From: Rhodopirellula europaea 6C
GTDB taxonomy: Bacteria; Planctomycetota; Planctomycetia; Pirellulales; Pirellulaceae
DNA: 64,000 nucleotides
Reading direction: 5' to 3'
Assembly: GCF_000338295.1 (NCBI RefSeq)
Contig: NZ_ANMO01000011.1
Span: 1 to 64,000, forward strand
The notes beneath the pieces were generated by a model. That model saw nothing but the letters and a program-made list of their open reading frames with translations. It had not been told where the DNA came from and did no database searches. Both the position numbers and the translations under genes were made by a program. Numbering within the stretch: the stretch's first letter is position 1; each line of letters opens with the position of its first letter. This document shows positions 151 through 57,312 of the stretch, one piece after another.

Positions 151-182
151 CACGGGTTTTGCTGCAACTAACCCGTGTCTAC
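151..182 (-). repeat. GTAG-headed palindrome (REP-like) downstream of the PEP-CTERM gene
   Basis: Read on the minus strand, GTAG (179-182) leads into an imperfect palindrome with arms CACGGGTT and AACCCGTG (151-158 paired with 170-177) and an 11-nt loop. It lies about 60 nt past the stop of the PEP-CTERM gene, so it could also define that transcript's 3' end. It belongs to the family of GTAG hairpins found throughout the window. The rest of 1-241 shows no gene that I can support. Confidence 0.6.
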
Positions 183-29246: not shown

Positions 29247-29385
29247 GTCGTGCTGAGCCGTCAGTGCGAAACGAAGTGTTGGCGGATGGAAATGCTTGAT
29301 CCGATCTCAAATCCAACGATGGACAAACGACCGGTTTTGATGTTTGACTGAGATTGATCTCAACTAGCCTTGCGAACCGGTCAGA

Positions 29386-32607: not shown

Positions 32608-32847
32608 TTCGTGCTGAACTCAATCAATCAAAGGTTTGGGAGTGCTTGATAACCACAGGTTCATCGCACAAACATTGAACACCGGGCGGATCAACACCGC
32701 CGGGACTGTCGCTGCCGATTGCCCAGCTCAACAAACGGCACCTCCGTGCGAGCGAAGGTCGACGCGAAACGTTTGATCGTTCCGGACCTCTAAGATACCT
32801 CAATCGCGAAAGCATTGTCTCACAAGACCAATGTCTTTTTCATCCGC

Positions 32848-35800: not shown

Positions 35801-36066
35801 GGCACGATGTGGTCGTGGTCCAGCGTTTGAATCAGCTTCGCTTCACGTTCGAATCGCCGACGAAACCGCGGATTGTCCGCCACATGATTTCGCAACACCT
35901 TCAAGGCAACGGTTTGATCCGTTTCGGTGTGCCGAGCCAAATAGACTTCGCCCATCCCGCCGGTGCCGAGTGTTCGGACGATTTGATAGTCGCCAATGTG
36001 TTTGGCGACGATTTCAGCGGAGATCGAAGTGCGAACTTCGGTGGGATCTTCGTTGGGGCTTGGCAC
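32848..36066 (-). CDS. Membrane Ser/Thr protein kinase with WD40 propeller (paralogue 3)
   Basis: The 1,072-residue protein starts at GTG 36066. It has a complete kinase core (LGTGGMGEVYLARH, VALKVLR, HRDVKPSNLII, TDFGLAFLED, GTPAYMSPEQTIG), a transmembrane helix after QRNPLVALASFIG, the helical linker ending FISDMSLAFKAFEARN, and a WD40-like region (GIAVSNDGKLLVSAGEDGSV, CIAISPDNQFFLTGL, VYVWRLSD). It is the first of the three tandem genes in the direction of transcription. Nothing suggests decay. The regulated pathway is not indicated by neighbours, which are metabolic genes of unrelated type. Confidence 0.93.
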   Translation of the reverse strand: MPSPNEDPTEVRTSISAEIVAKHIGDYQIVRTLGTGGMGEVYLARHTETDQTVALKVLRNHVADNPRFRRRFEREAKLIQTLDHDHIVPLLETGDDNGVPYLAMQLVDGQTLADLILEQRGIDDADRSGVDSQTDTAILSHASATPDDSGKSYEFIANAIADVAEALHSAHANKVIHRDVKPSNLIIDRKGKLWLTDFGLAFLEDDQTALTMTGDLVGTPAYMSPEQTIGSHSEVTRRSDVYSLGATLYEWATLHRPFSGNREQVLVNVANGSLATPRSLRNDLPVALEAVICKAMSRSPDGRYPTAAAFAEDLRRFAAGKSVHARMPGWSERLFRWSQRNPLVALASFIGVITTIVAVLSMQAIYSGQLVLINEQLEKSNDDLIASNLQLEAREAELSNQLFISDMSLAFKAFEARNLFTTKQLVDKHRTQASPFGTNRFAFELLNYLASPPSSTLLTQHDSPSTGIAVSNDGKLLVSAGEDGSVHVVDLQTNQRLHQYQLPGRLDCIAISPDNQFFLTGLNESIGFCPIKVYRIDDGEEVLGLLGHWHSMESGTFSSDGKLIATADRYRQVQIHDIDGNVIKSLDATTRNESLAFIEGSHRLVYVHEKESGRELRVLDLDTKKHTVIPTDVLVAQFAISKPQGKKDAFRVVSQGYGSLSVSDFGQPSPFIEFDSFGVSFRCVSISDDGSLIYSGTDEGAVYVWRLSDRSSSNELFRPLIVPAATGRIYDIETVAGQSETPGFITAAEDGKVTLWETEEKMPIRPSNQTVAYRNTRTRSITTPYQGSADVFFALRSGEIVHYNPQEGLHKIAVITQIPGKDTVELAVTEDASVIAVCSDKDLKIYDVQTTKLTNTIPSLDLERSCRSLQYMGDRLYLLYTDEVLVYSVPDYSLEGTIKLPSDNASAIHRLPKDDSLLIVTDKALCVVDGMSASIYQQAESAADQFRGVAIDSRGKQMAVIRSNRLIEVCSIPKFETVAVLRGHVQIPSDCQFLDNDLSLATTCEDGLIRFWDIASEREMGSLVAGKSLHNRLHYFDDFDMLLSTSDAIPMDLWVTKRSQTGFASAEQTEEN

Positions 36067-41099: not shown

Positions 41100-41213
41100 C
41101 ATCACCGTATTGCCGATCCAATGCCGCGTGTCCGCATCGTTGGTGTCGGAGCGGGTTCCAGCTATCATTCGCGAGCATTCTCGTCCCAGCCTCGCAAATT
41201 CTCCGATTCGTTC

Positions 41214-42197
41214 ATGCCCACGCAGTGCCTCATCAGCTTCGGATCGAACCTGGGCGATCGCCGCGTGGTGATCGCGGAAGCGGCACGCCGGGTGGCTGAG
41301 TCGGGCGTCGTCGCCAAGCCTTGTTCCGAGCTATCAGGCGAATCCTCCGAAGAACCTGTTCAGCGTCTTCGAACCAGCCGCCTTTTCGAAACCCCGCCAA
41401 TCGGCGGCCCCGGAGGCCAATCGCCCTTTCTGAACGCCGTCGCCGCGTTTGCGACGGAAGCCTCCGCGGCGGAAGTCTTGGACGTGCTGCAACATCTGGA
41501 GATCGACCTGGGCCGAAAGCGTTTGGTTCGATGGGGCGCCCGTGTGATCGACCTGGACGTTGTCCTACACGGTCGCCTGGCAGGTCCCGCCAGTTCAGCT
41601 GGACGTCGAGGTCTGATCGGCGGCCGCGGCCCAGCCGGATCGGCAAAAGCATTGGTCGTCCCGCATCCTCGATACACCGCCCGACGATTCGTCTTGGAAC
41701 CGGCTTGCGACGTCGCCGCCGACTTCTGCGACCCGCGTTTTGGATGGACGATTCGGGACTTGCGAGATCACATTGCCGCGGATGTGCCGTCCATCGCTTT
41801 GGTGGGCGGCGATTCACAGCTTCGGCAAATCATCTGCCAGCGTTTGGCTTCCGAACACGGCATCACGGTCATCGATCCAGATCGCCCCGATGCCGCAAAG
41901 GGTTTGCAGCAATGGGTCGCGGCCGATCCACCAATCGCATTGCGTGATTCAAAGGAGATCGACCAAGACACTTCGCCGACGTCGCAGTGCCTGCCCAGGT
42001 TGCTCGCTCGAATCCAGCACACAACCGAAAAAGATCGATGGCCGGCACCGCATCAGATTTGGCCGGCCGGATGGAAGTGGCCCGAATACCGATTGGAAGT
42101 CGACGACCTGGATTGGGCCATCGGCGAACTCGCCTCCGCGATTGACTCCATGCGATGCGAGATTCACCCCATCACGGAAGACGGCCACTGGTGGTGA
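41214..42197 (+). CDS. folK: HPPK (folate biosynthesis) with unusual C-terminal extension
   Basis: From ATG 41214 (MPTQCLISFGSNLGDR) the product has 327 residues. The first 190 match 6-hydroxymethyl-7,8-dihydropterin pyrophosphokinase, which transfers pyrophosphate from ATP to hydroxymethyl-dihydropterin: SFGSNLGDR, RLFETPPIGGPGG, PFLNAVAAF, WGARVIDLDVVLHG and VVPHPRYTARRFVLEPACD. HPPK alone is about 160 residues. The additional 130 residues start with IALVGGDSQLRQIICQRL and include HQIWPAGWKWPEYRLEV; the first motif resembles a nucleotide-binding strand-loop-helix but lacks a canonical P-loop Lys. The function of this tail is unknown. No other folate gene is adjacent. Confidence 0.88.
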   Translation: MPTQCLISFGSNLGDRRVVIAEAARRVAESGVVAKPCSELSGESSEEPVQRLRTSRLFETPPIGGPGGQSPFLNAVAAFATEASAAEVLDVLQHLEIDLGRKRLVRWGARVIDLDVVLHGRLAGPASSAGRRGLIGGRGPAGSAKALVVPHPRYTARRFVLEPACDVAADFCDPRFGWTIRDLRDHIAADVPSIALVGGDSQLRQIICQRLASEHGITVIDPDRPDAAKGLQQWVAADPPIALRDSKEIDQDTSPTSQCLPRLLARIQHTTEKDRWPAPHQIWPAGWKWPEYRLEVDDLDWAIGELASAIDSMRCEIHPITEDGHWW

Positions 42198-42204: not shown

Positions 42205-42229
42205 GTAGAACAATTGCCCCCAATTGTTC
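42205..42229 (+). repeat. GTAG-headed palindrome, left half of inverted pair
   Basis: GTAG (42205-42208) opens a perfect hairpin: GAACAATTG (42208-42216), loop CCCC, CAATTGTTC (42221-42229). It lies between the convergent folK and 466-residue genes. A related hairpin at 47946 has compensatory changes on both arms (GAACGATTG/CAATCGTTC), which indicates selection for the fold. Confidence 0.75.
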
Positions 42230-42321
42230 CGTCGCACAGCGTTCCATCGTCGAACCGCACCGCACTTCGAGCTTCATCCGCGATCGCATCACGCTACCCG
42301 GCAACTCCAACCAGCCACGCA

Positions 42322-42345
42322 AACAGTTGGGGACAACTGTTCTAT
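42322..42345 (-). repeat. Palindrome, right half of inverted pair (ATAG variant)
   Basis: AACAGTTG-GGGA-CAACTGTT (42322-42341) forms a perfect 8-bp stem. On the minus strand it is headed by ATAG instead of GTAG. A near-identical element with intact GTAG lies at 48065-48088. It faces the element at 42205, about 90 nt away. Confidence 0.7.
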
Positions 42346-42356
42346 GCCGAGCCTGT

Positions 42357-43757
42357 CTACATCGTTCGGTCAAACCAGATTTCAAATTTTTCGGCGCGAC
42401 CGGATCCCCATTTCCGCTCGCTATAGGGGATGCGGCCAACTCCGGGTTCATCGTCTTCACCTTGGTGCATTTTGTCGTCTGTCCAAAGGACCGCGACAGC
42501 CTGATCCCCTTTCTTCGACCCGTCATCCGCTCGGTACCCAAGGCGTTCTCTGGTACTGAGCGTCCAATCGCGGTCGTCTGCCCCCATTGATCGCAACGAG
42601 TCCAACGACCGAGGAAAGCGTTCGTTCTCAACTTGGTATTTCCGCACATAGACAGCCGTCAGCGTCCATTTTCTGGAGTCGTGGAAATTGTCATTCTGCT
42701 GTTTTCCGTATGCGATTGAGACATCCCAGTCCTGTCGCATCCAGCGATTCAGCGTTGCGAAGGGCACGGACACCAAGCTCCTTGACCCATCGGCAATTGC
42801 TCGTTCCGTCTCTTGGTTCCGTTGTGCGCCCTTGCGATCGCGTCGCCCGCCACGATCGAATTCAGCGGCATTGCGTGGTTGCATCCATTCCAGAGCCGCC
42901 ATCGCATGAATGGCCGATGCTCCGAACGGCTGGATCGATCGCAGGTCAGGATCGGTGAAGCGAACCCAGGATCCCTCATCCTGCAGCGGGTCCCAAGCCA
43001 CAAAGCTCGACAACAGAGATTCGTTCCATTGGTCGAGATCGGGGCCCTGGATTTCGCTCGTTAAAGCAACGAGTTCAGTGAGTTGTTCCTCGTTCCAGAA
43101 TGCGTGGGCAACCGATTGGCGAACCAGGCGAAGCCAATGCGTCGACAAATTCCATTGCGACCATACTTGGAACCCGTTCGATTGTCCCAACAGTTCAATG
43201 AACTGTCTCCATTGTCGCAGCAGCGCAATGGCCCGTTCCGTGTGACCGGAATGATACGCCAATCGAAACTCGTCCTTTAAAAGCTCTAGGACTGACCCGG
43301 AGTTGCTGCCAGACATCCACAAGCGACGCGAAGAAAACGATACTTCGACGGGGATGGAAGCCTCGCTTTTTAGCATCTCTTCGAGCTTATCAATGAGTGG
43401 CTGAGCTTCTTCGCTCATCAATGCAGCGAACGGTTCGGCCGGCCACGGTTCATCCGGCGGTACGAGATCCTCCAGTCCTTCCACCGAGTCTCGCGACATT
43501 TCTCGCAACGCAGTCACGGCGTCAAATAGCTCGGTCCATTCCGCTGAACGTTCGTTCGTTCCTGCGGCGGTGTACCGATCGTGAATTTGGGTGGTGGTGA
43601 CGGGGACACCGCTGTCGGCCATTTCGTTGACCACGGAACGGTATTCGCCCTTGACCCAATACTCTCGCCCCACACCCCAAGCGATCGCCAGGACCACTAG
43701 GATCGGTGGGTACCACATCCAGAGGCGATATCGAAAATCAGATGTTCGTTGGCTCAT
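42357..43757 (-). CDS. Single-pass membrane protein of an ABC transporter operon, function unknown
   Basis: The 466-residue protein has one membrane helix near the N-terminus (WYPPILVVLAIAWGVG, residues 15-30) followed by a large soluble domain, probably extracytoplasmic, with no recognised motif and a helical, Trp-rich look. Its ATG overlaps the stop of the permease gene by 4 nt (ATGA at 43754-43757), so translation is coupled and the protein probably works with the transporter. It ends next to a pair of GTAG-type hairpins. I do not know the family. Confidence 0.75.
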   Translation of the reverse strand: MSQRTSDFRYRLWMWYPPILVVLAIAWGVGREYWVKGEYRSVVNEMADSGVPVTTTQIHDRYTAAGTNERSAEWTELFDAVTALREMSRDSVEGLEDLVPPDEPWPAEPFAALMSEEAQPLIDKLEEMLKSEASIPVEVSFSSRRLWMSGSNSGSVLELLKDEFRLAYHSGHTERAIALLRQWRQFIELLGQSNGFQVWSQWNLSTHWLRLVRQSVAHAFWNEEQLTELVALTSEIQGPDLDQWNESLLSSFVAWDPLQDEGSWVRFTDPDLRSIQPFGASAIHAMAALEWMQPRNAAEFDRGGRRDRKGAQRNQETERAIADGSRSLVSVPFATLNRWMRQDWDVSIAYGKQQNDNFHDSRKWTLTAVYVRKYQVENERFPRSLDSLRSMGADDRDWTLSTRERLGYRADDGSKKGDQAVAVLWTDDKMHQGEDDEPGVGRIPYSERKWGSGRAEKFEIWFDRTM

Positions 43758-46255
43758 TGGACTTCCTCCTCAGTGGGGACATTCGATTCGGACTCTGTCT
43801 CGGTCTGTGCTTTGGTTTGCAAACGCTGCCAGATGAGCTGGCCCTCGGTTTCCCAGGGTTCAAACCAACTGACCGCCGGATACCCATAGAACCGACGAGG
43901 ATGCAGAGTGTTTTGCCCAGAGCTCGCATTGTCGCTGTAGGGCCCGGTTTCAAAGTCGCCACCTGGCCGCCCCACCAACTCATGCAGCGCCCGGAACTCA
44001 GGTTCTAGATCACCGCCAGCCTTCTGTTTTTCCTGGATTTGCAAGCACCGATCCACCACTGCGCCGAATCCCTTTTGCATGATGCTCGCTCGCCAATTCA
44101 GCGGAACACGAGCAAACCAATCGTCGTTCGCACTCACGCCATACCACTGGCTGTGTTCCGACAATTCGAGATCCACGTGCCAGCTCACCAGCAACGCCCG
44201 CCGGCGAGCCGATTGTCGGTCGTCAAACGCTGCGACTTGTTCCGCCGCCCGCCGAAAGAACGGCTCCGACTGAAGCGGCTGCATGGCTTTGTCAGATAGA
44301 TTGTTGACAAGCCACTCTTCCACATAGTCAGCCATCTCTTGGTCGAACCAGCGAACGCTCAGTCGCAACCGTCGGGCGGCCGTGGTCAATCGATCAATAA
44401 AAGCGGCCAACTCCTCTTTTGAAGTCTCACTCGGATTCTGCTTCCACCGCAGCTTGGTGAATGAAGCCATCTCCAGGCTGTTTTGAATGATCCAGGTGTC
44501 GGCCCTTAGCGGTGTGTCGTCTTGATTACCGATCACCATCCAGGTGTCCGGCGAGGCATAATTTCGCTGATGAAATCGTTGCACCGCGGTTTCGCCATCC
44601 ACTTCTCCTAGCCTGTTTGAGAAGTCGTCACGAAGATCAAGATCGCCCATCCGCATCGAGGCAAAGTTCATCGAACTCGCTTTGCTGAGCCTTCTTGCTT
44701 CTGGCAACAGTTCCGCGACGCGTTCTTTGGGCATCCGCGGGAACTGTGATTTCGCGATCCAAACGGGAAGGCTTGGCAAGAGTGAAAACAGCAAGCCAGC
44801 GACCACCATCGTCGACCAGTACTTCCAACCGCGTCTTCCATCCATGAAGTCATGCATCGTCCACCACGTCGCAGCGAACGGAAGCACGGCAATGAGCAGC
44901 AACCATCCCAGTCGAACCCCGTTGCCCACGCCCGCGTTGATCAGCATCGCCAATGCGACCAGCGAGAGCACCGGAGCCAAGAAAGCAGACGCGGCAAGCA
45001 TCGGTACCAATTGGCTGGTCCACTGAGACACGCCATACACGACCGCGAACACAGCCAAAATCGTCAGCAGGGAAACCTCCGGCACAGCGGGTCGATCGTA
45101 TGCATCCGGACTGAGTGGTGTTCCCAGGATGGCCTGAACCACAAGGATCAACAAAGAAATCCCGCATAGCAGACTGACGCCAAACCAGTGACGGCCAACC
45201 CACGCTCGATGAGGCGACACGCCGCGATCGGCCAGAAACTTCAATCGCCCGGAGGAACCGTCTCCCGTGAATACCGCAACGCCCAACCAAGACACGGCCA
45301 GCAGCGACAGTCCGATCGAAACTTGGATCGCCACCATCAACCAGCTTGAAATTTGCCCCAGGTGATTGGTCAGCACCAACCAAGCCAAAGCACCGGCAAG
45401 TAGAGGAACGCTCAAGCCAATCGACATCCAACGCGAACTGTGAATGGTCTGCCAAACCAACGAAGTCAACGAATTTCGAAACGGCAACTCGCTTGGTGCC
45501 GAAGTCTCCGGTGGACGCCAGGCATCGGCAGAATGCAACCCGTCACGGCCGAGCAATCGTTCCGGTTCATCGGCCTGCAGCTCTCTCCGGCCAGCTCGAT
45601 ACGCAAACCATCCCGCGATGGGAATCGCCAAAGCCGTCACGATTCCCATCACCCAAGTCTTCTGAGTCACATCCGCGTATTGCGAGCTCCCGATAAAAGG
45701 CATCGCATGCCAAATTTCCACCACGAGAAAGGGCAGCAACGCCAGTGGAATGATCCAGACCAGGGCGGGAAAGGCATTCTTGTTTCGCCATGCGGTGTAA
45801 AACCCACAGAGCAAGACGTAGATGGAATGCAGAAACCAAAAGGCGGGGTGAATCTGCTTCAATTCAGCCAGCGGTCCACCGTTGCCACCATCCAATCCGG
45901 CCAAGATTCCGAGCAGCCAACATCCGAGCCACATCAGCATCAAACCAGCAAACGCGACGACAAATTTTGTCATCACGATCGGACGTATAGGAATCGGAAG
46001 CGACGCCAGCCAGTTCAACGAACGAGTTTCCTTTTCATGGCTGATCAGGATCGCCCCCGCACCGGCCGCGAATAACGCTGGCATGATCAGCGGAACAATG
46101 TCCCCGGTGGCTTGCAGCGTCACATTCAATTGCCGCGAAGTGGCTGCCCACACGATGAACAATAAGGCCGAGACTCCTAACAACATCCCGATCAGCGGGA
46201 TGACCTGCTTGGCCTCTTTCCACAGCAGGCCCTGCCATAGACGAGTTTCGTTCAT
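43754..46255 (-). CDS. ABC-2-type transporter permease with large C-terminal soluble domain
   Basis: The 833-residue protein has about twelve hydrophobic segments in its first 500 residues, beginning after a cytosolic stretch MNETRLWQGLLWKEAKQVIP, a usual opening of ABC-2 permeases. The pattern of HEKETRSLNWLASLPIP is also typical. After WIAKSQFPRM the last 330 residues are soluble. The gene overlaps the ATPase gene by 4 nt upstream (ATGA) and the 466-residue gene by 4 nt downstream. The substrate is unknown; the YtrA-type regulator suggests stress or cell-envelope linked control. Confidence 0.85.
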   Translation of the reverse strand: MNETRLWQGLLWKEAKQVIPLIGMLLGVSALLFIVWAATSRQLNVTLQATGDIVPLIMPALFAAGAGAILISHEKETRSLNWLASLPIPIRPIVMTKFVVAFAGLMLMWLGCWLLGILAGLDGGNGGPLAELKQIHPAFWFLHSIYVLLCGFYTAWRNKNAFPALVWIIPLALLPFLVVEIWHAMPFIGSSQYADVTQKTWVMGIVTALAIPIAGWFAYRAGRRELQADEPERLLGRDGLHSADAWRPPETSAPSELPFRNSLTSLVWQTIHSSRWMSIGLSVPLLAGALAWLVLTNHLGQISSWLMVAIQVSIGLSLLAVSWLGVAVFTGDGSSGRLKFLADRGVSPHRAWVGRHWFGVSLLCGISLLILVVQAILGTPLSPDAYDRPAVPEVSLLTILAVFAVVYGVSQWTSQLVPMLAASAFLAPVLSLVALAMLINAGVGNGVRLGWLLLIAVLPFAATWWTMHDFMDGRRGWKYWSTMVVAGLLFSLLPSLPVWIAKSQFPRMPKERVAELLPEARRLSKASSMNFASMRMGDLDLRDDFSNRLGEVDGETAVQRFHQRNYASPDTWMVIGNQDDTPLRADTWIIQNSLEMASFTKLRWKQNPSETSKEELAAFIDRLTTAARRLRLSVRWFDQEMADYVEEWLVNNLSDKAMQPLQSEPFFRRAAEQVAAFDDRQSARRRALLVSWHVDLELSEHSQWYGVSANDDWFARVPLNWRASIMQKGFGAVVDRCLQIQEKQKAGGDLEPEFRALHELVGRPGGDFETGPYSDNASSGQNTLHPRRFYGYPAVSWFEPWETEGQLIWQRLQTKAQTETESESNVPTEEEVQ

Positions 46256-47259
46256 GACTGTTCTCCCGAGGTGACAACTTCGGATTCACGTCCGCCGTCG
46301 CCGGTGGATGGCTTCGGCGACTCGGACGGTCCGCGAGACATTTCAGGCGGCGGTCCGGGCGGGCCAGCGAAACCTTTTCGCGTGTGGGCGATGAAGATTT
46401 CCTCCAACGTCATCGTTCGATCTCGCACGGCGACCACGCCCGAGGCGGACTCGATGAACGAAATCATCGACGGGTCAAAATTGCGGACCAGAAATCGCCG
46501 CTGTCGACCTTGGTTCTCTTCCAACAATGTTTCGGCTGGTTCGGGCAGCGTGGGGACTTGGACCAGCGGATCGTCCAGTGAGACGGTCAGCTCCGTCATC
46601 GAGCCTTTCAAATCGTTGAGCGGTTCGCAGGCTTGCAGTTTGCCGTTGTGCAAAATTCCGATCGTGTCGGCGACCCTTTCAACTTCGTTGATTTGATGAC
46701 TGGAAAGGAACACGGTTCGCCCAGAGGCGGCCCTGCCAATCATGCTTTCAAGAAACTCGCGACGAACCATTGGGTCCAAGCCGGACGTTGGTTCGTCCAG
46801 GATCAAAAGTTCGGGATCGTGCGCCAGAGCCAATGACAACGCGATCTTGGCACGCTGGCCTTTGCTGAGCACTCGGATCTTACGATCTTCGGGGATCTCA
46901 TACTTCGCGACCGATTCACGGTACGCGTCATAGAAGCCATCGGGATAAAACGAAGCCGTGAACCAGCCGATTTGGCCAACGGTCATCCAGTCGTACAGCG
47001 CGGGATTGTCAGAGACGTAGCCGACCCGCCGACGAACCTCCAAGGGCTGTTTCAGCGGATCGAAATCGCAGACGCAGGCGGATCCAGACGTCGGTTTCTG
47101 GAACCCGGTGAGGATTCGGATCAGGGTTGTTTTGCCGGCTCCGTTTTCACCCAGCAAGGCGAACACGGTCCCGGGCTGGATGGTCAGATCCACGCCCAGC
47201 AAGGCGTCGCAGCCTCGAAAACGCATGGTCAGTTGATCGGTCGAGATGACGGGGTTCAT
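46252..47259 (-). CDS. ABC transporter ATP-binding protein
   Basis: I start it at ATG 47259 (MNPVISTDQLTMRFRG), with AGGA about 8 nt upstream; an ATG at 47337, 7 nt after the GntR stop, is an alternative. The 335-residue product has Walker A GENGAGKTT, the Q-loop region GYVSDNPALYDWM, the signature LSKGQRAKIALSLALAHDP, Walker B LLILDEPTSGLDP and switch His in FLSSHQINEVERV. It is most like the YtrB/CcmA-type exporters paired with ABC-2 permeases. A C-terminal extension of about 90 residues ends in a Pro/Gly-rich segment (GPPGPPPEMSRGPSE) that may be disordered. It couples ATP hydrolysis to the permease encoded downstream. Confidence 0.92.
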   Translation of the reverse strand: MNPVISTDQLTMRFRGCDALLGVDLTIQPGTVFALLGENGAGKTTLIRILTGFQKPTSGSACVCDFDPLKQPLEVRRRVGYVSDNPALYDWMTVGQIGWFTASFYPDGFYDAYRESVAKYEIPEDRKIRVLSKGQRAKIALSLALAHDPELLILDEPTSGLDPMVRREFLESMIGRAASGRTVFLSSHQINEVERVADTIGILHNGKLQACEPLNDLKGSMTELTVSLDDPLVQVPTLPEPAETLLEENQGRQRRFLVRNFDPSMISFIESASGVVAVRDRTMTLEEIFIAHTRKGFAGPPGPPPEMSRGPSESPKPSTGDGGRESEVVTSGEQS

Positions 47260-47344
47260 GATGACGATCCTGCTTCGATGAGATGGGTTCAGTGTGCGTC
47301 GAATCAAACGCGGCCGAGGCATCTTGCTCGCCCGCATGGCAAGC

Positions 47345-47752
47345 TCATTGCAATTCGGCAATCGCTTCGATGGTTCCGTCGAGAGTCCGAAGTTGCTCAT
47401 CGACGAGCTTGCGGACCTCTTTGGCTGACAGCCCCGCTTGCAGAGCTTCGGTCAATACCGCGGATAGGCGTTCCGCAAGGAGCGACTGCCGCTGTTTGCG
47501 ACAACGCTCGACGGCGCCTTTGCAGACCACAACCCCGCGTCCGCGAAGCGTTTCAATCACGCCCTCGGATTGCAGGTCCTGGAACGCCCGAGCCACGGTG
47601 TTTGGGTTGACCGCCAATTGCTGGCTAAGCTGCCGAACGCTGGGAAGAAGCTGCCCCGGACGCAGTGTTTGCTCCGCGACAGCGAATTTCACTTGGCGAA
47701 CGATCTGGGAATAGATCGCCACGCCATTGGAAGGGTCGACTGTAAAAAACAT
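47345..47752 (-). CDS. GntR-family (YtrA-type) transcriptional regulator
   Basis: The 135-residue protein starts at ATG 47752 (MFFTVDPSNGVAIYSQI); an upstream TTG is less likely. The winged-helix part is typical: IYSQIVRQVKFAVAEQTLRPG, LLPSVRQLSQQLAVNPNTVARAFQDL and EGVIETLRGRGVVV. The short C-terminal helical domain places it in the YtrA subfamily, whose genes normally head ABC transporter operons and repress them. Here the ABC ATPase, permease and a third gene follow directly. An inverted repeat lies 32 nt upstream of the start. Confidence 0.9.
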   Translation of the reverse strand: MFFTVDPSNGVAIYSQIVRQVKFAVAEQTLRPGQLLPSVRQLSQQLAVNPNTVARAFQDLQSEGVIETLRGRGVVVCKGAVERCRKQRQSLLAERLSAVLTEALQAGLSAKEVRKLVDEQLRTLDGTIEAIAELQ

Positions 47753-47772
47753 ATTCGCACCGATGCCCAAAC

Positions 47773-47798
47773 CTGGTTAACTGGTGTACTGGTTACAC
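47773..47798 (-). promoter_or_regulatory. Probable GntR/YtrA operator
   Basis: GTGTA (47784-47788) and TACAC (47794-47798) are inverted repeats separated by CTGGT. CTGGTTA occurs twice, at 47773-47779 and 47789-47795, a 16-bp spacing. They sit 20-46 nt before the regulator's ATG, where an autorepressing YtrA-type protein would bind. The assignment is by position and symmetry only. Confidence 0.5.
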
Positions 47799-47872
47799 GG
47801 TACAGCGGTCACAAGAGAGAGTCAAGCGAATTTGCAAAAGAAGTTTTGGTAGGCCGAGATGCGTACGCTGCC

Positions 47873-47893
47873 GTAGGCCAGGTTGTACCTGGC
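47873..47893 (+). repeat. GTAG-headed palindrome (CCAGGT type)
   Basis: GTAG is followed directly by GCCAGGT-TGT-ACCTGGC (47877-47893), a perfect 7-bp stem, then GATCAAGCCGATGC. The hairpin and some 35 nt after it, to about 47928, recur almost identically at 52014, so the repeat unit is longer than the hairpin. Confidence 0.75.
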
Positions 47894-47945
47894 GATCAAG
47901 CCGATGCTTTGGAACAAAGCGAGGCGACCACGAGACGTCACCAGA

Positions 47946-47971
47946 GTAGAACGATTGACCCCCAATCGTTC
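47946..47971 (+). repeat. GTAG-headed palindrome (GAACGATTG type)
   Basis: GTAG (47946-47949) overlaps the stem GAACGATTG (47949-47957), loop ACCCC, CAATCGTTC (47963-47971), a perfect 9-bp stem. Compared with the element at 42205, both arms carry matching changes. Confidence 0.75.
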
Positions 47972-48064
47972 CGTCATGACGCATGACTTCGCGGGACCAC
48001 ATCCAATGTCAAAGATTTACCGCGTTCGCTTTGCGCGGCTCGAAGCTTTCGTCCCTGGCACGCA

Positions 48065-48088
48065 AACAGTTGGGGACAACTGTTCTAC
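48065..48088 (-). repeat. GTAG-headed palindrome (AACAGTTG type)
   Basis: AACAGTTG-GGGA-CAACTGTT (48065-48084) is headed on the minus strand by GTAG (48085-48088). It faces the element at 47946 in the opposite orientation, the same arrangement as the 42205/42322 pair. Confidence 0.75.
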
Positions 48089-48146
48089 TCTGTTGCTTTG
48101 CAGAAAAACGCAGGACGTTGCCCGTGTCTTCGGTCGGGAATTTGTT

Positions 48147-48295
48147 GACGCAGAGACGCCAGGACGCGGAGACGCAGGGGCCTACCGAGAAGTTCGAGTG
48201 GGACCTGCGGGAGTGCGTGGCTTCGAAGGTCGGCAGGAGGATGCCAAAAACCGGGAGAACCTCTCTGCGCCCCCGCGTCTCTCCGCCTCTGTGTC
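48147..48295. repeat. MITE-like element with 35-bp imperfect terminal inverted repeats
   Basis: The left arm (48147-48181), beginning GACGCAGAGACGCC, and the right arm (48261-48295), ending CCTCTGTGTC, are imperfect inverted complements built on the theme GACGCAGAG / GACGCGG. About 80 nt separate them. The whole could fold into a long hairpin and resembles non-autonomous inverted-repeat elements. No coding capacity or clear target-site duplication is visible. Confidence 0.55.
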
Positions 48296-48381
48296 AAAAG
48301 GGGAACGCATCCGCACTGAGCGTTGAATCAGGTGAGTCCGAATTCTGGCGAATCCGGCTACACCGCCCCCGAAACAGCACC

Positions 48382-49035
48382 TTATCCTTGCGTCAAAACC
48401 ATGATGCGAATGGGATGCTCTGGATCATCATCCATCTCCACCGTGTGCTCGGTGTAATCCCATGGCTTGTCCTTCACCCACTGAGAAAACTCGGTCGCGA
48501 TCAATCGTTGAGGGTCACTCAAGATCAATTGCCCATCCTCGGTCAAATGTTCGGCGGCGGACTGCAACAACTCCGGCCACAGCGTTCTCAGGTAGGTGAC
48601 ATCGCTGCCCAGGATGAACGGAAACTTCTTCGGTGCCAGCGAATCCTCTCCCAACCGGAAGACCCGGACGTCAGCGTGCAAACCCAATCGAGACAAACTG
48701 AGTCGCACCAATTGCAACGGGTCCTCGACGCCATCAGTCAGCGTCACACGAGCCCCGCGCAGCAAGGCCGCGATCCCAGCATGCCCGGTCCCGCAGCCAA
48801 CTTCCAACACGTCTTGGTTGTGAATGGGAACTCGATCCAAAAAACGATCGAGCCCCGACGCCGCCCGCCAAGTCGTCGCCCAAAAGGGATCGATCACGCC
48901 CTCTTCACCAGCGTCTTGTCGCTCGCAAGCCTCGATCAACATCGCGTCGGGATCGGAAGCCACCGCCAAAGGTCGTTCCTGGCCGGCGATCAAGGTGTCT
49001 TCCCAGTGCCAAGCGAATGAAAGTGAATCGGCCAT
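48382..49035 (-). CDS. SAM-dependent methyltransferase (METTL21/ETFB-KMT-like)
   Basis: I start at ATG 49035 (MADSLSFAWHWEDTLIAG), because the upstream TTG/GTG-type extension would run into a repeat region. The 217-residue product has a seven-beta-strand methyltransferase fold: PFWATTWRAASGL, motif I VLEVGCGTGHAGIAALLRGARVTLTDG, and the acidic-Tyr motif GSDVTYLRTLWPELL. This resembles the METTL21/ETFB lysine and nicotinamide N-methyltransferase group (motif Dx(T/V)Y in place of NPPY), so a protein side chain is one possible substrate. The true target is unknown. It lies downstream of hemB on the same strand. Confidence 0.8.
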   Translation of the reverse strand: MADSLSFAWHWEDTLIAGQERPLAVASDPDAMLIEACERQDAGEEGVIDPFWATTWRAASGLDRFLDRVPIHNQDVLEVGCGTGHAGIAALLRGARVTLTDGVEDPLQLVRLSLSRLGLHADVRVFRLGEDSLAPKKFPFILGSDVTYLRTLWPELLQSAAEHLTEDGQLILSDPQRLIATEFSQWVKDKPWDYTEHTVEMDDDPEHPIRIMVLTQG

Positions 49036-49087
49036 GCTGAATTGTGTTTGCGAAAGATCGAATAAAGAAAGAAGCGGTTTATCGCCC

Positions 49088-49182
49088 GTACGATGGTCTT
49101 CCAAGACCGTCGCGTTCAACTTGGATGGTCTTGGAAGATCGACTTGCGGAATTTGCAGGACGGTCTTGGAAGACCATCCTAC
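49088..49182. repeat. Cluster of three GGTCTT palindromes (REP-like)
   Basis: GGTCTT-CC-AAGACC (49095-49108) is preceded by GTAC (49088-49091). Its inverted copy GGTCTT-GG-AAGACC (49162-49175) is headed on the minus strand by GTAG (49179-49182). A degenerate third copy lies at 49127-49140. They occupy the gap between hemB and the methyltransferase gene. Confidence 0.7.
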
Positions 49183-49203
49183 GGGGGAAGTTGTTGAGCA
49201 AGA

Positions 49204-50277
<1,074 letters not shown>

Positions 50278-50432
50278 TCACTGGTCCGCTGCGAGATGTT
50301 TCCATTTTGCGTCACAGATCGTGCCAAGCCTACCCGACCGATCTGCTAAACTAATCCCCCGCTCAATCACGTCCGGAAAGGGACGTTTTTCGAATTTCAC
50401 CTAGCTCCACCCACCCCACAGATTCAACGCCG

Positions 50433-51977
<1,545 letters not shown>

Positions 51978-52013
51978 TCACAGTTTGCATCACGCAGAAT
52001 CGACACAGCATCG

Positions 52014-52034
52014 GTAGGCCAGGTTGTACCTGGC
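52014..52034 (+). repeat. GTAG-headed palindrome (CCAGGT type)
   Basis: GTAG (52014-52017), then GCCAGGT-TGT-ACCTGGC and GATCAAGCC, matching the element at 47873 across the hairpin and about 35 nt beyond. It lies just after the ThuA-DUF1080 stop. Confidence 0.75.
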
Positions 52035-52114
52035 GATCAAGCCGATGCTTTGGAACAAAGCGAGGCGACACCCCGTCCCCTCACAAGCCCATCAATCACC
52101 GGCCTTCTATGATC

Positions 52115-52135
52115 GTCAGGTAGGACCTGACCTAC
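52115..52135 (-). repeat. GTAG-headed palindrome (TCAGGT type)
   Basis: On the minus strand GTAG (52132-52135) leads GTCAGGT-CCT-ACCTGAC and GATC. Compared with the element at 52014, the stem carries paired changes (GCCAGGT to GTCAGGT with ACCTGGC to ACCTGAC). The two form an inverted pair between convergent genes, about 80 nt apart. Confidence 0.75.
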
Positions 52136-52139
52136 GCAA

Positions 52140-52613
52140 TCAAGGTCGCGGGCGGCAGGCGAGGTGCAAGAACACGGCGGTGGCGACGATCACGGCATGG
52201 AACGCCGACAGCGACGTCAGGTAAATACGGCCTATCTGGATGGACTGGTTGAGGTAACCGTAGCCCAGCAACGTGAACATCGTGGAGAACAATGCAGTGA
52301 GCACGATGAATGGCACCAAGAGGCGGTAGGCCGTCAGCCATCGGCTCACACGGGAAGGCACCAACCACGCCCCCAACAACGCCAAGGCGATTCCGAAGGT
52401 CACCGGGATCGTGAACTCACGCAGCAAGAAAGTTATGTCGGAAACCCAGAGGGTTCCCGATCGAACATGCCAACTCACGGACAAGTAGACCGGGGTGATG
52501 ATCGACACCCCAACTCCGACCGACAGTGCATGCATGTACGTCAGGGGCGTGCGAACGACATCCACCTGATAGCGATCTTCAATCAGCGACTGATTCTCAT
52601 ATGGATTCGTCAT
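52140..52613 (-). CDS. Hypothetical multi-pass membrane protein
   Basis: From ATG 52613 (MTNPYENQSLIEDRYQ) the 157-residue product has four hydrophobic helices. No motif is recognised. It follows the neighbouring 52638-53120 gene by 24 nt on the same strand, so they probably form a small membrane operon. Its stop lies within 5 nt of a GTAG hairpin, which may end the transcript. Confidence 0.65.
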   Translation of the reverse strand: MTNPYENQSLIEDRYQVDVVRTPLTYMHALSVGVGVSIITPVYLSVSWHVRSGTLWVSDITFLLREFTIPVTFGIALALLGAWLVPSRVSRWLTAYRLLVPFIVLTALFSTMFTLLGYGYLNQSIQIGRIYLTSLSAFHAVIVATAVFLHLACRPRP

Positions 52614-52637
52614 GGCTCCACTGAGCGTTCGCAAACA

Positions 52638-53120
52638 TCACTTTTCCCAACGGTACCCTCGTGAAAGGACCTGCCCGTTCCGCCCGTAGGTCGGCTCATC
52701 CCAAACCTTTCGATAGCCCGAGCGTTCCATGCGATGTGCCACCGACCATTCACGAAACTTCCGAGACGTTTTTCTCAGGGTTTGCACGGACATCAGAACC
52801 AACACACATGCAATCAAACAGCCCGTCGCGAAAACGAACCCGGGCCTGGACTTCACGTCCAATTGCGTTTCAACCTGCTTCGCGGTCACCCCGTAGAGAA
52901 ACAACATCGCTGCGATGGCGAAGTAAACAACCGTCGCGATCACCGGATGAACGACCGCAAAGTCAAACGACGCCACCACGATCGGCAAAGCAATCAGCGT
53001 GGCGAGACTGAAGCGAAACAAGCGATTCTCCGAAAAGAGCCTACCATGATTGCCATGACTCAGGACTGACAATTCAAAACCATCCCGACACCATCCCCCG
53101 AATGACGCCCTTCGCTGCAA
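52638..53120 (-). CDS. Hypothetical membrane protein
   Basis: The 160-residue frame has about three hydrophobic helices (residues 37-57, 58-76, 95-110) and a basic C-terminal tail. The first 30 residues look atypical, so the true start may be a non-ATG codon further in. No family is recognised. It is divergent from the PEP-CTERM metalloprotease gene. Confidence 0.55.
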   Translation of the reverse strand: MQRRASFGGWCRDGFELSVLSHGNHGRLFSENRLFRFSLATLIALPIVVASFDFAVVHPVIATVVYFAIAAMLFLYGVTAKQVETQLDVKSRPGFVFATGCLIACVLVLMSVQTLRKTSRKFREWSVAHRMERSGYRKVWDEPTYGRNGQVLSRGYRWEK

Positions 53121-53253
53121 TATGCACCCGGCTCATTCTTCCCAATTCATTGTTTTCAAAACGTCGTGCGGCTAAGGTTGCTGAGTGCATTTCGAGCAAG
53201 CGGTGCATACAACTCGCACTGCTATTCTAAACATTCAGTCAGTGGCCAGGTGG

Positions 53254-54255
53254 ATGCAGCAGATCTACACCCAGAACAGCTTCTCTCTTCGATGCATTGC
53301 AGGTGCTACTTTCGTATTTTGCCTGGTAATTGGACAATCGTCTTTCGCAGCAATTACCTGGAACCTCACCTACGAAGACATCAGCAATGACTCGGGTGTT
53401 GGCTTTGATGACAGCTCTACCGGTGCCGCCCGTCGTTCAGTTTTTGAATCAGCACTGAGCTACGTATCCGATGTATTGAATGAATCTGGAACGGTCAATC
53501 TGACCATCCGTGAGTCGCTGACATCTGGCACCGGTTCTCTCGCATCGGCAGGCTCCTCATATTTCTTTGGCGGTGGATTTCAGCAGGGGATCGTCCAGCA
53601 GAACATTCTGAATGTCGGGCCCGGAACCTCGATCACAGGATCGCATGGCTCAGCACGTTTTGATTTTGGGTATTCATGGAATGAATCACTGGCGGCGCCC
53701 GATGCTGGCGAATTTGACCTGTTTAGCGTTTCGCTTCATGAAATCAGTCACGCAATCGGTTTTGCAAGCCTGATGAACTCGGACGGAACTAGCCCGATTG
53801 GCGTATCAGATTCAACAAGCAATACCTACTCCACCTACGATCAATTTCTGCGACTTGACGACGGTACTGAACTCTTCAACGCATCCGGTGAATTCATCGG
53901 AACTCCCGCGGACCTCACTTCTAACTCAGTGGTTTTTGATGGCGTGAATGCCTCTGTCGCCAATGCAGCCTCCGTCGTCGACATCTATTCCCCAGCGACA
54001 TTCAATGATGGCTCAAGTATTTCGCACATTTTAGACTCGAACAGCGTGATGCAGTTCAGCATCGCCCCCCAGGTTACGCGACGTACCTACTCAGAAATCG
54101 AGATTGGGATTTTGCAGGACATCGGTTACGCAAACGCGAGCGCGACCGCGGTACCTGAACCTACATCACTTGTTTTGGTCCTCGCCTCACTATTTTGTGT
54201 GCTTGCCTGGCGACGGTCCAACCGCAGCTTTCCTCTGGCCAAAACTGCAGCCTGA
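53254..54255 (+). CDS. PEP-CTERM protein with zinc-metalloprotease motif
   Basis: I start at ATG 53254 (MQQIYTQNSFSLRC), which has AGGTGG immediately upstream and puts a signal peptide at the N-terminus (to about residue 32, SSFA); a GTG at 53185 is an alternative. The 333-residue protein contains the zinc site HEISHAIGF at about residue 162. It ends with VPEPTS, a hydrophobic stretch and RRSNR, a PEP-CTERM sorting signal. The HExxHxxGF motif resembles metzincin-like proteases, but the usual third His three residues after the Gly is Ser here, so another ligand must serve. The protein would be exported and processed by an exosortase. The substrate is unknown. Confidence 0.82.
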   Translation: MQQIYTQNSFSLRCIAGATFVFCLVIGQSSFAAITWNLTYEDISNDSGVGFDDSSTGAARRSVFESALSYVSDVLNESGTVNLTIRESLTSGTGSLASAGSSYFFGGGFQQGIVQQNILNVGPGTSITGSHGSARFDFGYSWNESLAAPDAGEFDLFSVSLHEISHAIGFASLMNSDGTSPIGVSDSTSNTYSTYDQFLRLDDGTELFNASGEFIGTPADLTSNSVVFDGVNASVANAASVVDIYSPATFNDGSSISHILDSNSVMQFSIAPQVTRRTYSEIEIGILQDIGYANASATAVPEPTSLVLVLASLFCVLAWRRSNRSFPLAKTAA

Positions 54256-54281
54256 ACCGTTCATTGCCCGCTATCCGACGC

Positions 54282-54677
54282 TCACCCCGCCTGCTGGCGA
54301 CGCTCCAACTCCTGCAGCACCGCGATTCGTTGGTCGGCTTGTCGAATGAGGTTTTGAACGACCGCGATGCGGGTATCCAGGTCGCCGGTCAATTCGCGTT
54401 GCAAGTCGAACATCGCGACCTGCCAACGCTGGGTCTCTATCGGAGCGTCGCTGAGCGGAAGAGCTGTTTTGACCTCTGAATCCAAACGCCGCTGAGTTTC
54501 GCGGCTTTCGCCCCGTTGCTGAATGGCCTTCTTCTTTCGCGAAATCGTCATTCGCGCCAAAACCCAACCCAACAGCAAAAATCCTGCGACCAACCACAAC
54601 GTCCCTCGGTCAAACGAAATCGCTTCGAGAGCGTCTTCGGCGAGCAAACGCGGCACTGAAAGTGGGTGGCGGATCAT
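54282..54677 (-). CDS. Small single-pass membrane protein
   Basis: From ATG 54677 (MIRHPLSVPRLLAEDA) the 131-residue product has one transmembrane helix (about 26-44, LWLVAGFLLLGWVLA) and a charged, helical C-terminal half that looks like a coiled coil (LQRELTGDLDTRIAVVQNLIRQADQRIAVLQELERR). Function unknown. It converges with the metalloprotease gene, 26 nt away, and is divergent from the phosphopantetheinyl transferase gene. Confidence 0.65.
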   Translation of the reverse strand: MIRHPLSVPRLLAEDALEAISFDRGTLWLVAGFLLLGWVLARMTISRKKKAIQQRGESRETQRRLDSEVKTALPLSDAPIETQRWQVAMFDLQRELTGDLDTRIAVVQNLIRQADQRIAVLQELERRQQAG

Positions 54678-54769
54678 ATTGTTCTCATCGTGTGATCGCC
54701 GCACTTGCGAACAACGATTCTGCAGATCCCCGTCAGCGTGATTGACGGGTGGGCCCAGTTTTGTCGATC

Positions 54770-55591
54770 ATGGCAGCCATGACGAAAACGCCCCCCGTAC
54801 AATCGAACGCCGCCGACTCGCAACAGCCCTCTGCTGCGCCGAATCGCCCGCTGACCAAACAATCTCCGATCCAGCTTTGGTACGCCTCGGCGGCCCACGA
54901 CACACCCGGCAAAATCGAATCATTTTGCATGAGGTGGCTGCCGCAAGAAGAACATCAATCGGCCGCCAAATTCCGAGTCGCCTCGGCACGGCATCAACAC
55001 GTGATCGGCCGGGGCATGGCTCGTTTCTTGATCGCCGACACGAACACCGCCCCGCATCAGATCCAATTCAGAAACTTGGACCACGGCAAACCCATCGTGG
55101 AAACGCCCGAGCAATTGCGTCGGCCGTTCAACATCGCACACACAAAAGGCCTGGTGATCTGCGGAATCGGTGCCGAAGCAGCGGATGAATGGCTGGGCGT
55201 CGATATCGAAGGCCTGGACCGAAAAACCGATCCCGGACTCGCTCAGCGGTATTTCGCTCCGGAAGAAATCGAGCAGCTCGACCGAGTCAAAAACGACGAC
55301 GCAAAACAAGCTTTGTTCCTGAAAATCTGGACGCTGAAAGAAGCGTTCATCAAAGCGATCGGTACCGGCCTGAACACACCGCTGGACCAATTTGCGTTTG
55401 TAAACGCGTCGTCCAACTCCCCACGCTTGGTCCTGAAAGACGAATCACTCGCGCAGGGTCGTCATTGGCAGATCCGCAACGTGATTCCTCGGCAAGGTTA
55501 CATCGCCGCGGTCGCACTCGGCACCAAAACCAGCGATATCGTTCCCAAAATCGAACTCTCCGATTTCCGAAAACGAATGCAAGACTGCTAG
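54770..55591 (+). CDS. 4'-phosphopantetheinyl transferase (Sfp/AcpT type)
   Basis: The 273-residue product activates carrier proteins by moving the phosphopantetheine arm of CoA onto a serine. It has FNIAHTKGLV, the metal-binding GVDIEGLDRK and the C-terminal motif FLKIWTLKEAFIKAIGTGL. Start codons at 54770 and 54779 are both possible; no strong ribosome site decides. Such Sfp-type enzymes usually serve polyketide, non-ribosomal peptide or fatty-acid synthases; none is in the window, so the partner is elsewhere. It converges with the ApbE-NqrM gene, with a hairpin between the stops. Confidence 0.9.
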   Translation: MAAMTKTPPVQSNAADSQQPSAAPNRPLTKQSPIQLWYASAAHDTPGKIESFCMRWLPQEEHQSAAKFRVASARHQHVIGRGMARFLIADTNTAPHQIQFRNLDHGKPIVETPEQLRRPFNIAHTKGLVICGIGAEAADEWLGVDIEGLDRKTDPGLAQRYFAPEEIEQLDRVKNDDAKQALFLKIWTLKEAFIKAIGTGLNTPLDQFAFVNASSNSPRLVLKDESLAQGRHWQIRNVIPRQGYIAAVALGTKTSDIVPKIELSDFRKRMQDC

Positions 55592-55597
55592 CTCCAG

Positions 55598-55633
55598 CTC
55601 GGCGAACAGCCGAGGCATCGGCATCTCGCCTAC
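55598..55633 (-). repeat. GTAG-headed imperfect palindrome between convergent genes
   Basis: Read on the minus strand, GTAG (55630-55633) leads into a nested hairpin: outer arms GGCGA/TCGCC, a symmetrical 3-nt internal loop, inner arms GCCGA/TCGGC. An alternative CTCGGC/GCCGAG stem lies at 55598-55614. The imperfect palindrome with an internal bulge is exactly the described form of REP elements. Confidence 0.7.
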
Positions 55634-55652
55634 GACCTACTTCTAAGCCAGC

Positions 55653-56972
55653 CTACTTCGCAGCCATCTTGTCCCGAAGCTCTTGGCAGGCTTCCGAAGG
55701 GGTGCTGCACATCGTGCAGCGAGAAACGCCGTCTTCGTCAACCTTGGCATTCAAGCCGCCGCAGGATCCGCTGATCGCTTGCCGGCCGAAGATCACCCCG
55801 ACCGCCATCGCCAACAACACGGCGCCAAACGTGATCCCGGTCATCAACAGCACTGGTGCCATTCGCTGAGCGAACGTTTTCGCCTCGGCCTTCTCGGACT
55901 TATTGGCAGCGTCATCCACGACGGACACATCAGCAGGAACATCAACATCGGCGTATTCAGCCAACTCGCCCGTCCCACTGGATACTAAGCGGTCGCTCAA
56001 TCGCTGCACGATCAACACGCTGAGGTCGTTCTCACGAGCCAAACGCATCGCTTCTTCGCGCCCAACAACATTCAGCGCCGTCGCCCAACCATCGGCAAGC
56101 ATACAGCTATCCGTGATCACGCTGACTGACGCCAGTCCATTGGTGACGGGGCGTCCGGTCCGTGGATCAATGGTATGAGAGTAACGCTGCTGATCGACCT
56201 CAAAGAAGTTTCGATAGTCACCGGAGGTTGCCATCGCAGCATCGCGAATCTTGTGAGCGACCATCAATTCTTGCCCACCCGCGTCGGGTCGTTGAATCCC
56301 AACCTTCCATGATTCACCGGACTTGTCGCCGGTCACACGAACCTCGCCGCCAATTTCGACGAACACATTTTCAGCGTCACGACCAGCCAACAAATCGACG
56401 ATCCGATCCACGCCATGGCCTTTGGCAATCGAAGACAGGTCAACTCGCAGATCCGCGATGTCCTTCTTCAGTGCCGGCGGATCCAAACGTGCTTCCAAAT
56501 GCTGATAGCCAACGCTCTTCTGCAACTCGTCCAACTCCGTTTCGCTGGGGACGTCGTTTTTGCGTTCGCCGGCGCCAAAGCTCCATCGATCCACCAGCGG
56601 TCCCACCGTAACGTCAAACGCCCCATCTGTTTTTTCAGACAGTTCCAACGCGGCGGCGACAACACGAGCGGTGTCGGCACTGACCTCGAACCAATCCGTG
56701 GATTCGGATGCATTGAATTGGCTCAACTCAGACGACTTCAAATACGTCGACATTTGATCGTTGACCGAACGCAACTCACGGTCGATCGCCGTTTCGGTCT
56801 CCGACGCCCAATCCGGTTGCTCCGGCGGCGAGTGGACTTTGACCATGTAGGTCGTGCCCATCGTTGCACCGCGAAAGGTCAGTGGATCGGCGGCATGTGC
56901 GGTCGCCGCCAAACAACACGCTGCGAGGAACCAACCTCCAAAGAAAGCGACAACGCTGGAATGAGTTCTCAT
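55653..56972 (-). CDS. apbE-nqrM: Fusion of flavin transferase ApbE and Na+-NQR maturation factor NqrM
   Basis: From ATG 56972 (MRTHSSVVAFFGG) the product has 439 residues. A signal peptide ending ATAHA precedes an ApbE domain (about 28-340; FRGATMGTTYMVKV, FDVTVGPLVDRW, DLSSIAKGHGVD, HTIDPRTGRPV, DGWATALNVVG), which covalently attaches FMN to Thr in NqrB and NqrC. A linker of about 35 residues and one transmembrane helix lead into a C-terminal NqrM/DUF539 module: GRQAISGSCGGL, then CTMCS and ACQELRDKM. NqrM is thought to help insert iron in the Nqr complex and is normally a separate protein of about 70 residues. It lies 340 nt downstream of nqrF on the same strand. The fusion is read from the uninterrupted sequence. 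Confidence 0.93.
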   Translation of the reverse strand: MRTHSSVVAFFGGWFLAACCLAATAHAADPLTFRGATMGTTYMVKVHSPPEQPDWASETETAIDRELRSVNDQMSTYLKSSELSQFNASESTDWFEVSADTARVVAAALELSEKTDGAFDVTVGPLVDRWSFGAGERKNDVPSETELDELQKSVGYQHLEARLDPPALKKDIADLRVDLSSIAKGHGVDRIVDLLAGRDAENVFVEIGGEVRVTGDKSGESWKVGIQRPDAGGQELMVAHKIRDAAMATSGDYRNFFEVDQQRYSHTIDPRTGRPVTNGLASVSVITDSCMLADGWATALNVVGREEAMRLARENDLSVLIVQRLSDRLVSSGTGELAEYADVDVPADVSVVDDAANKSEKAEAKTFAQRMAPVLLMTGITFGAVLLAMAVGVIFGRQAISGSCGGLNAKVDEDGVSRCTMCSTPSEACQELRDKMAAK

Positions 56973-57312
56973 CGAAAGATTCGCATTGGGTTGGAGCTGG
57001 AGTCCTGAGCGAAGAATCCGTTCGGCGATCAGTCCGTGTTGCGTGAGCGGTTTGGCCAACGAGATTGGTGACCATCCCGAATACAATCGTTTGCACTCGC
57101 AATCAGGAAGGCGACCGAAGGGCCTCGGTTGCCGACGTGAAACATGACAACCGAAGGGCCTCGGTTGTCTACATAAACGCGTCGCAACCGAGAGACTCGG
57201 ACGGTGGCTCACTCGTAGGCGACTGAGGCTCTCAGTCGCATCAATCTCGTAGGCAACTGAGGCCCTCAGTTGCCTTCAAACTGGCTGGCAATGTAAGCCA
57301 CTCACTGCCTGA
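56973..57312. repeat. Run of palindromes between nqrF and apbE-nqrM
   Basis: Five hairpins lie in 57110-57274: GGCGACCGA/TCGGTTGCC (57110-57133); GACAACCGA/TCGGTTGTC (57146-57169), headed on the minus strand by GTAG; a short CCGAG/CTCGG (57188-57200); GCGACTGAG-GCT-CTCAGTCGC headed by GTAG (57215-57239); GGCAACTGAG-GCC-CTCAGTTGCC headed by GTAG (57249-57274). No gene is supported. Confidence 0.75.

Follow-up and report, generated by a model that had tools for sequence, protein, structure and literature searches.

The window analysed here, bases 1 to 64,000 of a 189,744-base contig of the draft genome of Rhodopirellula europaea 6C (7.19 Mb, 273 contigs), carries a series of hairpins with a GTAG foot between its genes (Table 1). 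It is very probable, on comparative grounds, that these hairpins are repetitive extragenic palindromic (REP) elements, many of them in the paired form of a bacterial interspersed mosaic element (BIME) or REP doublet forming hairpins (REPIN). As such they would be non-autonomous units, moved as single-stranded DNA by Y1 transposases of the REP-associated tyrosine transposase (RAYT, TnpA-REP) kind encoded elsewhere in the genome, and the same high probability applies to the further claim that two of the classes, A and B, each have a RAYT of their own. This interpretation is preferred because the repeats are numerous and dispersed, RAYT genes lie within clusters of matching repeats, the catalytic and GTAG-contacting residues are conserved, the stems vary in a compensatory manner, and orthologous gaps in sister genomes differ in the presence of the repeats.

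GTAG directly precedes palindromes far more often than expected. Outside the window, across 652 kb of this genome, it stood before a perfect stem (at least 7 bp, loop of 2-6 nt) 28 times in 1,986 occurrences, where 1.5 were expected (18.6-fold), and it ranked first of all tetramers with over 100 occurrences; the 652 kb consist of contigs selected for matches to Y1 transposases, to which one stretch of the contig bearing the window was added, with seven repeat-selected stretches excluded. Within the window, 9 of 197 GTAGs precede such a stem, which is 42 times expectation and the top value of all tetramers with over 20 occurrences. Strict pattern searches of the genome returned 29 matches for class A (GTAG-AACNNTTG) and 104 for class B (GTAG-GCCAGGT, with perfect 7-bp stems and loops of 3-4 nt); the copy numbers of 29, 104 and 40 stand against none for the reversed patterns. 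An earlier sequence-only reading of the window had named chance-level counts as evidence against its proposal, and the counts lie far above the controls instead. That the hairpins are chance palindromes beside a common tetramer might be suggested by weak sites such as 55630 and 151, but this is refuted for classes A and B by the enrichment and the copy numbers, and its overall probability is negligible.

Inverted pairs with GTAG facing outward have an outer span of 139-142 nt in all four class A cases and of 120-129 nt in ten of the twelve class B cases. Their spacers measure about 80-95 nt, in agreement with the 40-100 nt originally proposed. Only 10 of 82 pattern-found repeats lie inside open reading frames (ORFs) of at least 250 aa, as compared with 73% of random positions, in a 1.42 Mb set that takes in stretches chosen for their repeats. 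Classes A and B share with REPs the GTAG foot, dispersed extragenic copies, inverted dimers and a cognate RAYT flanked by its own repeat. In the window, class A is represented at 42205, 42345, 47946 and 48088, and class B at 47873, 52014 and 52135.

About fifteen GTAG-headed palindromes had been claimed for the window. At nine of the 14 coordinates named (marked in Table 1), GTAG is immediately followed by a perfect stem of 7-9 bp with a loop of 3-6 nt; the stem at 49162 is imperfect, the site at 151 is doubtful, and at 55630 there is no hairpin (-2.1 kcal/mol, z -0.17 against shuffles). At 42322 and 49088 the foot differs from GTAG by one base, as the earlier reading had noted, and is ATAG and GTAC, respectively. 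Folded as DNA, 12 of 13 stretches beat their shuffle mean by more than 2.7 standard deviations, the exception being 55620-55660. The class C hairpins (57147-57273) have a common loop-proximal core around GGCC or GGCT and very variable lower stems.

Stable folding and a mostly intergenic placement are also compatible with RNA signals selected by the host, either intrinsic terminators or mRNA stabilisers, which would not be mobile. However, none of the stems inspected (20 of class A, 32 of class B) has a T-run directly after it, the repeats cluster around two transposase genes, and sister gaps differ in their presence. The sole Rfam hit between 41000 and 58000 (E ≤0.1) is located at 41219-41268, off the repeats and under the cut-off. 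An RNA function as the explanation of these hairpins is considered very improbable.

The two transposase genes are placed as expected for cognate RAYTs. RAYT-A is encircled by five class A repeats (35876, 35991, 36025, 36140 and 37068, within about 300 bases), and RAYT-B, which lies on the same contig as the window, 51 kb beyond it, by six class B repeats (115062, 115097, 115889, 115997, 116032 and 116140). RAYT-B matches the TnpA-REP of Escherichia coli (PDB 4er8) with an E-value of 2e-40 and the NCBIfam model REP_Tyr_transpos with 171.9 bits (cut-off 80); RAYT-A matches 4er8 with an E-value of 5.7e-7. In the alignment both proteins have the HUH motif, the catalytic tyrosine in YxxxNP, and WQ....(D/E)H..R, a stretch that includes GTAG-contacting residues in E. 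coli, according to the available sections of PMC6006769. Further Y1 genes were identified on contigs C113 (RAYT-like, without a clear GTAG repeat close by), C269, C30 and C266, together with three genes of subclass 1.2 on C181, C192 and C97. RAYT-B and the C113 gene went undetected in a genome-wide Pfam search and were recovered by other searches. A lack of Y1 or RAYT genes in this lineage had been put forward as a refutation; such genes are present in the genome, and GTAG next to a palindrome as the signature of a RAYT/REP system is borne out by the counts and by the RAYT genes amid matching repeats.

Relatives of the two transposases point in the same direction. The named carriers of relatives of the genome's RAYT include Rhodopirellula, Rubripirellula and Pirellula. 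GTAG palindromes were found at nine of the first 17 RAYT-A loci listed, and at seven of these nine the repeats fall into the same A-C..TTG family, their stems differing by compensatory changes (AACAATTG, AACGATTG, AGCAATTG, ATCGATTG). For RAYT-B they were found at nine of the 13 strongest relatives out of 30 given loci (the weaker L214-L229 being excluded), with stems altered on both sides. At one class A-type RAYT locus (L054:2364-4192) a regular array of double-foot repeats (GTAG ... CTAC) lies beside the gene.

If a single RAYT that accepts any stem next to GTAG moved every type, this would account for the mixture of types in common gaps (A with a type termed D2 in three pairs, B with D2 in two), for the very variable class C stems, and for the failure to find a RAYT for class C or D2. 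The listed repeats around RAYT-A are, however, all of class A and those around RAYT-B all of class B (100 of the 104 class B copies in the genome being listed), and the relatives of each RAYT mostly retain their own stem family. A single broadly acting transposase is unlikely, although less so than an RNA function. The original expectation that several stem types would imply several RAYTs is supported for classes A and B, each with its own RAYT amid matching repeats, and leaves class C and the 49088/49182 type with no assigned transposase.

Comparison of orthologous gaps in sister strains, suggested in the sequence-only reading, covered 10 sister loci for a class B gap and 12 for a class A gap, and empty, decayed and full repeat-RAYT-repeat states were seen. 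The class B gap (52014-52135) sits after gene 50433-51977. In genome G151 it holds a BIME, a RAYT and a second BIME, followed by the same right-hand sequence as the single BIME of the window; in G130 a single REP of the BIME is found; and in G149 and G153, as in five genomes that are more distant, there is no GTAG hairpin within 1.3 kb. The class A gap (42205-42345) sits after gene 41121-42197, which encodes an HPPK domain. Here G151 carries the pair and G130 one recognisable half plus one decayed half, and nothing was found within 700 nt in nine of the 12 sister genomes. Such differences are what mobile or losable units would be expected to leave. Beyond the HPPK gene of G153 (L255) a long run of the hexamer GCTCGT is present in the strand as read, and it may lie on the other side of the gene.

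Several points weigh against the assignment of the hairpins to REP/RAYT systems. All of the support is comparative, and movement was not observed. RAYT-A reaches only 63.3 bits, which is under the NCBIfam cut-off of 80. A strict GTAG palindrome is missing at 8 of the 17 RAYT-A relatives and at 4 of the 13 RAYT-B relatives, the 63%-identical L049 being among those without one. For class C and the 49088/49182 type a transposase was not found: the Y1 genes identified have no adjoining class C repeat, class C not having been searched for genome-wide. Types also share gaps in the window, where 47873 (class B) stands alongside 47946/48088 (class A), so that neighbourhood alone is no proof of cognate pairing. 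In the sister genome G155 the class B gap contains four GTAG-GTCCGGT hairpins 279-833 nt past the gene, and the class A gap two tandem GTAG-TGCAGCCA copies; one gap can consequently be hit by several types. L254 and L244 are the G155 loci in which other GTAG families were seen.

By analogy with other RAYTs, the transposases would bind the folded single strand through GTAG and the hairpin and would cut at a nearby dinucleotide, the choice of which may be helped in part by GTAG. In the available part of PMC8266576, other RAYTs are described as binding a single-stranded hairpin, with a GTAG dependence that differs between groups, and as cleaving at CT (or CA), in one of them partly selected through the foot.

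Table 1. Hairpins of the window, the two candidate cognate transposases, and loci with a RAYT in frame within a host gene. "Yes" marks GTAG immediately followed by a perfect stem of 7-9 bp.
Feature	Position	Strand	Full match	Basis or context
Class A REP, GTAG-AACAATTG stem-loop, opens inverted pair	42205..42229	+	yes	pattern match, folding
Class A REP, second of pair, foot ATAG	42322..42345	-		folding, sister-gap scan
Class B REP, GTAG-GCCAGGT	47873..47893	+	yes	pattern match
Class A REP, AACGATTG stem	47946..47971	+	yes	pattern match
Class A REP, AACAGTTG stem, partner of 47946, pair span 143 nt	48065..48088	-	yes	GTAG at 48088, folding
Further hairpin type, GATGGTCTT stem, foot GTAC	49088..49111	+		folding
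Partner of 49088, foot GTAG at 49182	49159..49182	-		one non-Watson-Crick stem position
Class B REP, BIME left half	52014..52034	+	yes	pattern match, sister comparison
Class B REP, GTCAGGT stem, BIME right half, GTAG at 52135	52115..52135	-	yes	sister comparison
Class C hairpin, ACAACCGA stem, GTAG at 57172	57147..57172	-	yes	folding
Class C hairpin, GCGACTGAG stem	57215..57239	+	yes	folding
Class C hairpin, GCAACTGAG stem	57249..57273	+	yes	folding
Doubtful member, GTAG one base off bulged stem (8 + 3 bp)	151..182	-		folding
RAYT-A, class A transposase, 239 aa	C257:36164-36880			inside class A repeat cluster
RAYT-B, class B transposase, 200 aa	C11:115249-115848			inside class B repeat cluster
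RAYT in frame within a host gene	L062, L065, L067, L071, L073-L076, L078-L080, L082, L083, L085, L091, L092			other genomes

The window also contains a single ORF of 4659 aa (796-14775, minus strand) and three consecutive ORFs of 1072-1074 aa, perhaps paralogues (26022-36066, minus strand).

A different element accompanies the three subclass 1.2 genes, which are IS200-like and fit the signature DH[IV]H, WQ, Y---Q--HH in alignments. Genes of this subclass occur in 87 of 149 genomes of the family. Strict hairpins with an NTAG foot were found at 25 of 32 subclass 1.2 loci examined, the feet being ATAG (35), GTAG (25), TTAG (19) and CTAG (9). The complete element is 46 nt long and consists of a 5-bp mini-hairpin, an 8-nt linker, the NTAG foot and an 8-bp hairpin. 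The mini-hairpin precedes the foot by about 8 nt and is paired in 321 of 365 cells, as compared with at most 199 of 365 when it is slid, and many stem types are represented; the elements had been picked for the main hairpin alone, with no use of the mini-hairpin. Of 73 distinct elements, 65 have a main hairpin of 20 nt, and thirty of these, sharing a single register of the mini-hairpin, were chosen by hand as alignment rows; the 100% pairing in a covariation test of these rows arises by construction and was discarded as evidence.

A covariance model (R1) was built from hand-picked rows, so that most of the 28 loci with a full-length match (E ≤1e-5), among the 32 examined (L171-L200, L002 and L003), match by construction; L175, L189, L194 and L196 have no strict NTAG hairpin and contributed no row to the model. 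At L172, L178, L181 and L192 a full-length match was missing at this threshold. Matches were obtained in 108 of the 149 family genomes, with 33 in the genome of the window and none in the window itself at E-values up to 5. Under stricter filters, which were used for the association between genomes, the element is present in 82 of 87 gene-bearing genomes versus 26 of 62 gene-less genomes, kinship being ignored and many genomes being incomplete; counts per genome run to at least 41. Three plasmid loci were fetched of 37 records matched: that of Persicobacter (Bacteroidota) has the element on each side of the subclass 1.2 gene (L264:1359-1404 and 1975-2020; E-values 2.7e-9 and 6.9e-7), and it is missing from those of Bernardetia and Leptolyngbya. 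A scan of viral contigs yielded no subclass 1.2 relative. A copy of the element (L026:211-256, E-value 1.2e-10) also lies just upstream of a Y1 gene outside subclass 1.2 (frame 360-1079) on C269.

The (E/D)H..R residues by which TnpA-REP holds GTAG are absent from the subclass 1.2 proteins, and in the element the first base of the foot is variable and TAG is fixed. The two-hairpin element itself is directly observed. Somewhat better than even is the probability that the subclass 1.2 transposases move it as a 46-nt module, in which TAG would serve mainly as a base-pairing guide to the position of the cut, on the model of IS200 ends, and which would represent an intermediate between an IS200 end and a REP across the Pirellulaceae.

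A further observation was made among RAYT loci from other genomes, mostly metagenome assemblies. At 16 of 80 such loci the RAYT lies in one open frame with host domains on both sides; the host genes are ValS (5), CarB (4), MetH (3) and one each of LeuS, GcpE, Sua5 and poly(A) polymerase, the GcpE locus being included on a second host stretch whose place was not shown. Eight further loci, including three Eco57I-type methylases, carry a flanking host domain on a single side, are truncated at a contig end, or have only a sub-threshold domain on the other side. At L078 the match to E. coli CarB is interrupted at residues 487/488 by an insert of 249 aa, and at L085 the ValS match is interrupted at 203/210 by one of 252 aa. 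In the RAYT part of the five ValS and four CarB ORFs the HUH motif and the tyrosine are kept, and synonymous change greatly exceeds amino-acid change, the synonymous sites being mostly near saturation. Of 21 ORFs inspected, 10 have hairpins of the GTAG or GTGG type close to the insert.

Three points count, or may count, against these in-frame RAYTs: among the ORFs inspected those of ValS have no such hairpin near the insert, in CarB the host enzyme is better conserved than the RAYT, and the L078 RAYT is without the proline of the tyrosine motif. Two other explanations were considered. For inteins, Pfam showed no intein domain in the nine large ORFs scanned (E ≤1e-3), and the RAYT takes up most of the inserts of 249 and 252 aa; fusion to restriction methylases only proved wrong.

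Compared with known systems, the REP elements of the window fall within a kind already described and are not new in kind, because GTAG REPs and tyrosine transposases of Rhodopirellula baltica are in print (Di Nocera et al. 2013, PMC3733652). The available part of that paper reports GTAG REPs in Planctomycetes and, for R. baltica, several GTAG families plus many tyrosine transposase genes with matching flanking repeats. The GTAG foot, the stems of mostly 6-9 bp, the short loops, the dimers and the repeat-specific tyrosine transposases described there are all alike here. A literature search gave no paper joining R. baltica, "repetitive extragenic palindromic" and transposase. RAYT-B aligns with E. 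coli TnpA-REP over most of its length and has the same WQ-FWEH-R stretch. E. coli REPs have a bulge, according to the sections available of PMC8266576, whereas the class B stems are perfect and bulge-free. Two RAYT/REP pairs with graded sister gaps offer a natural series for the spread and decay of REPs.

For RAYTs inside host genes nothing comparable was seen in a literature search limited to partial listings without most subscription papers. In the available text of the published surveys, REPs but not RAYTs are described inside genes (PMC3733652), and a small number of proteins that were longer than expected were set aside as fusion products or misannotations (PMC6006769). RAYTs in frame inside housekeeping genes look new, and their persistence within ValS, CarB and others would be a new mode for a transposase.

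The three IS200-like genes resemble TnpA-Y1 subclass 1.2 of Quentin et al. (2018, PMC6006769) in all parts of the signature. In the portion of that paper available the subclass is tabulated as REP-less, a published statement and not a strict definition, whereas the genes found here are flanked by the two-hairpin NTAG element. It was the only relevant paper in a literature search for subclass 1.2 with REP, which covered few subscription papers, and the association looks new. If confirmed, it would supply a REP-like partner for a transposase group recorded without any, and would bear on the origin of REPs from IS200-type ends.

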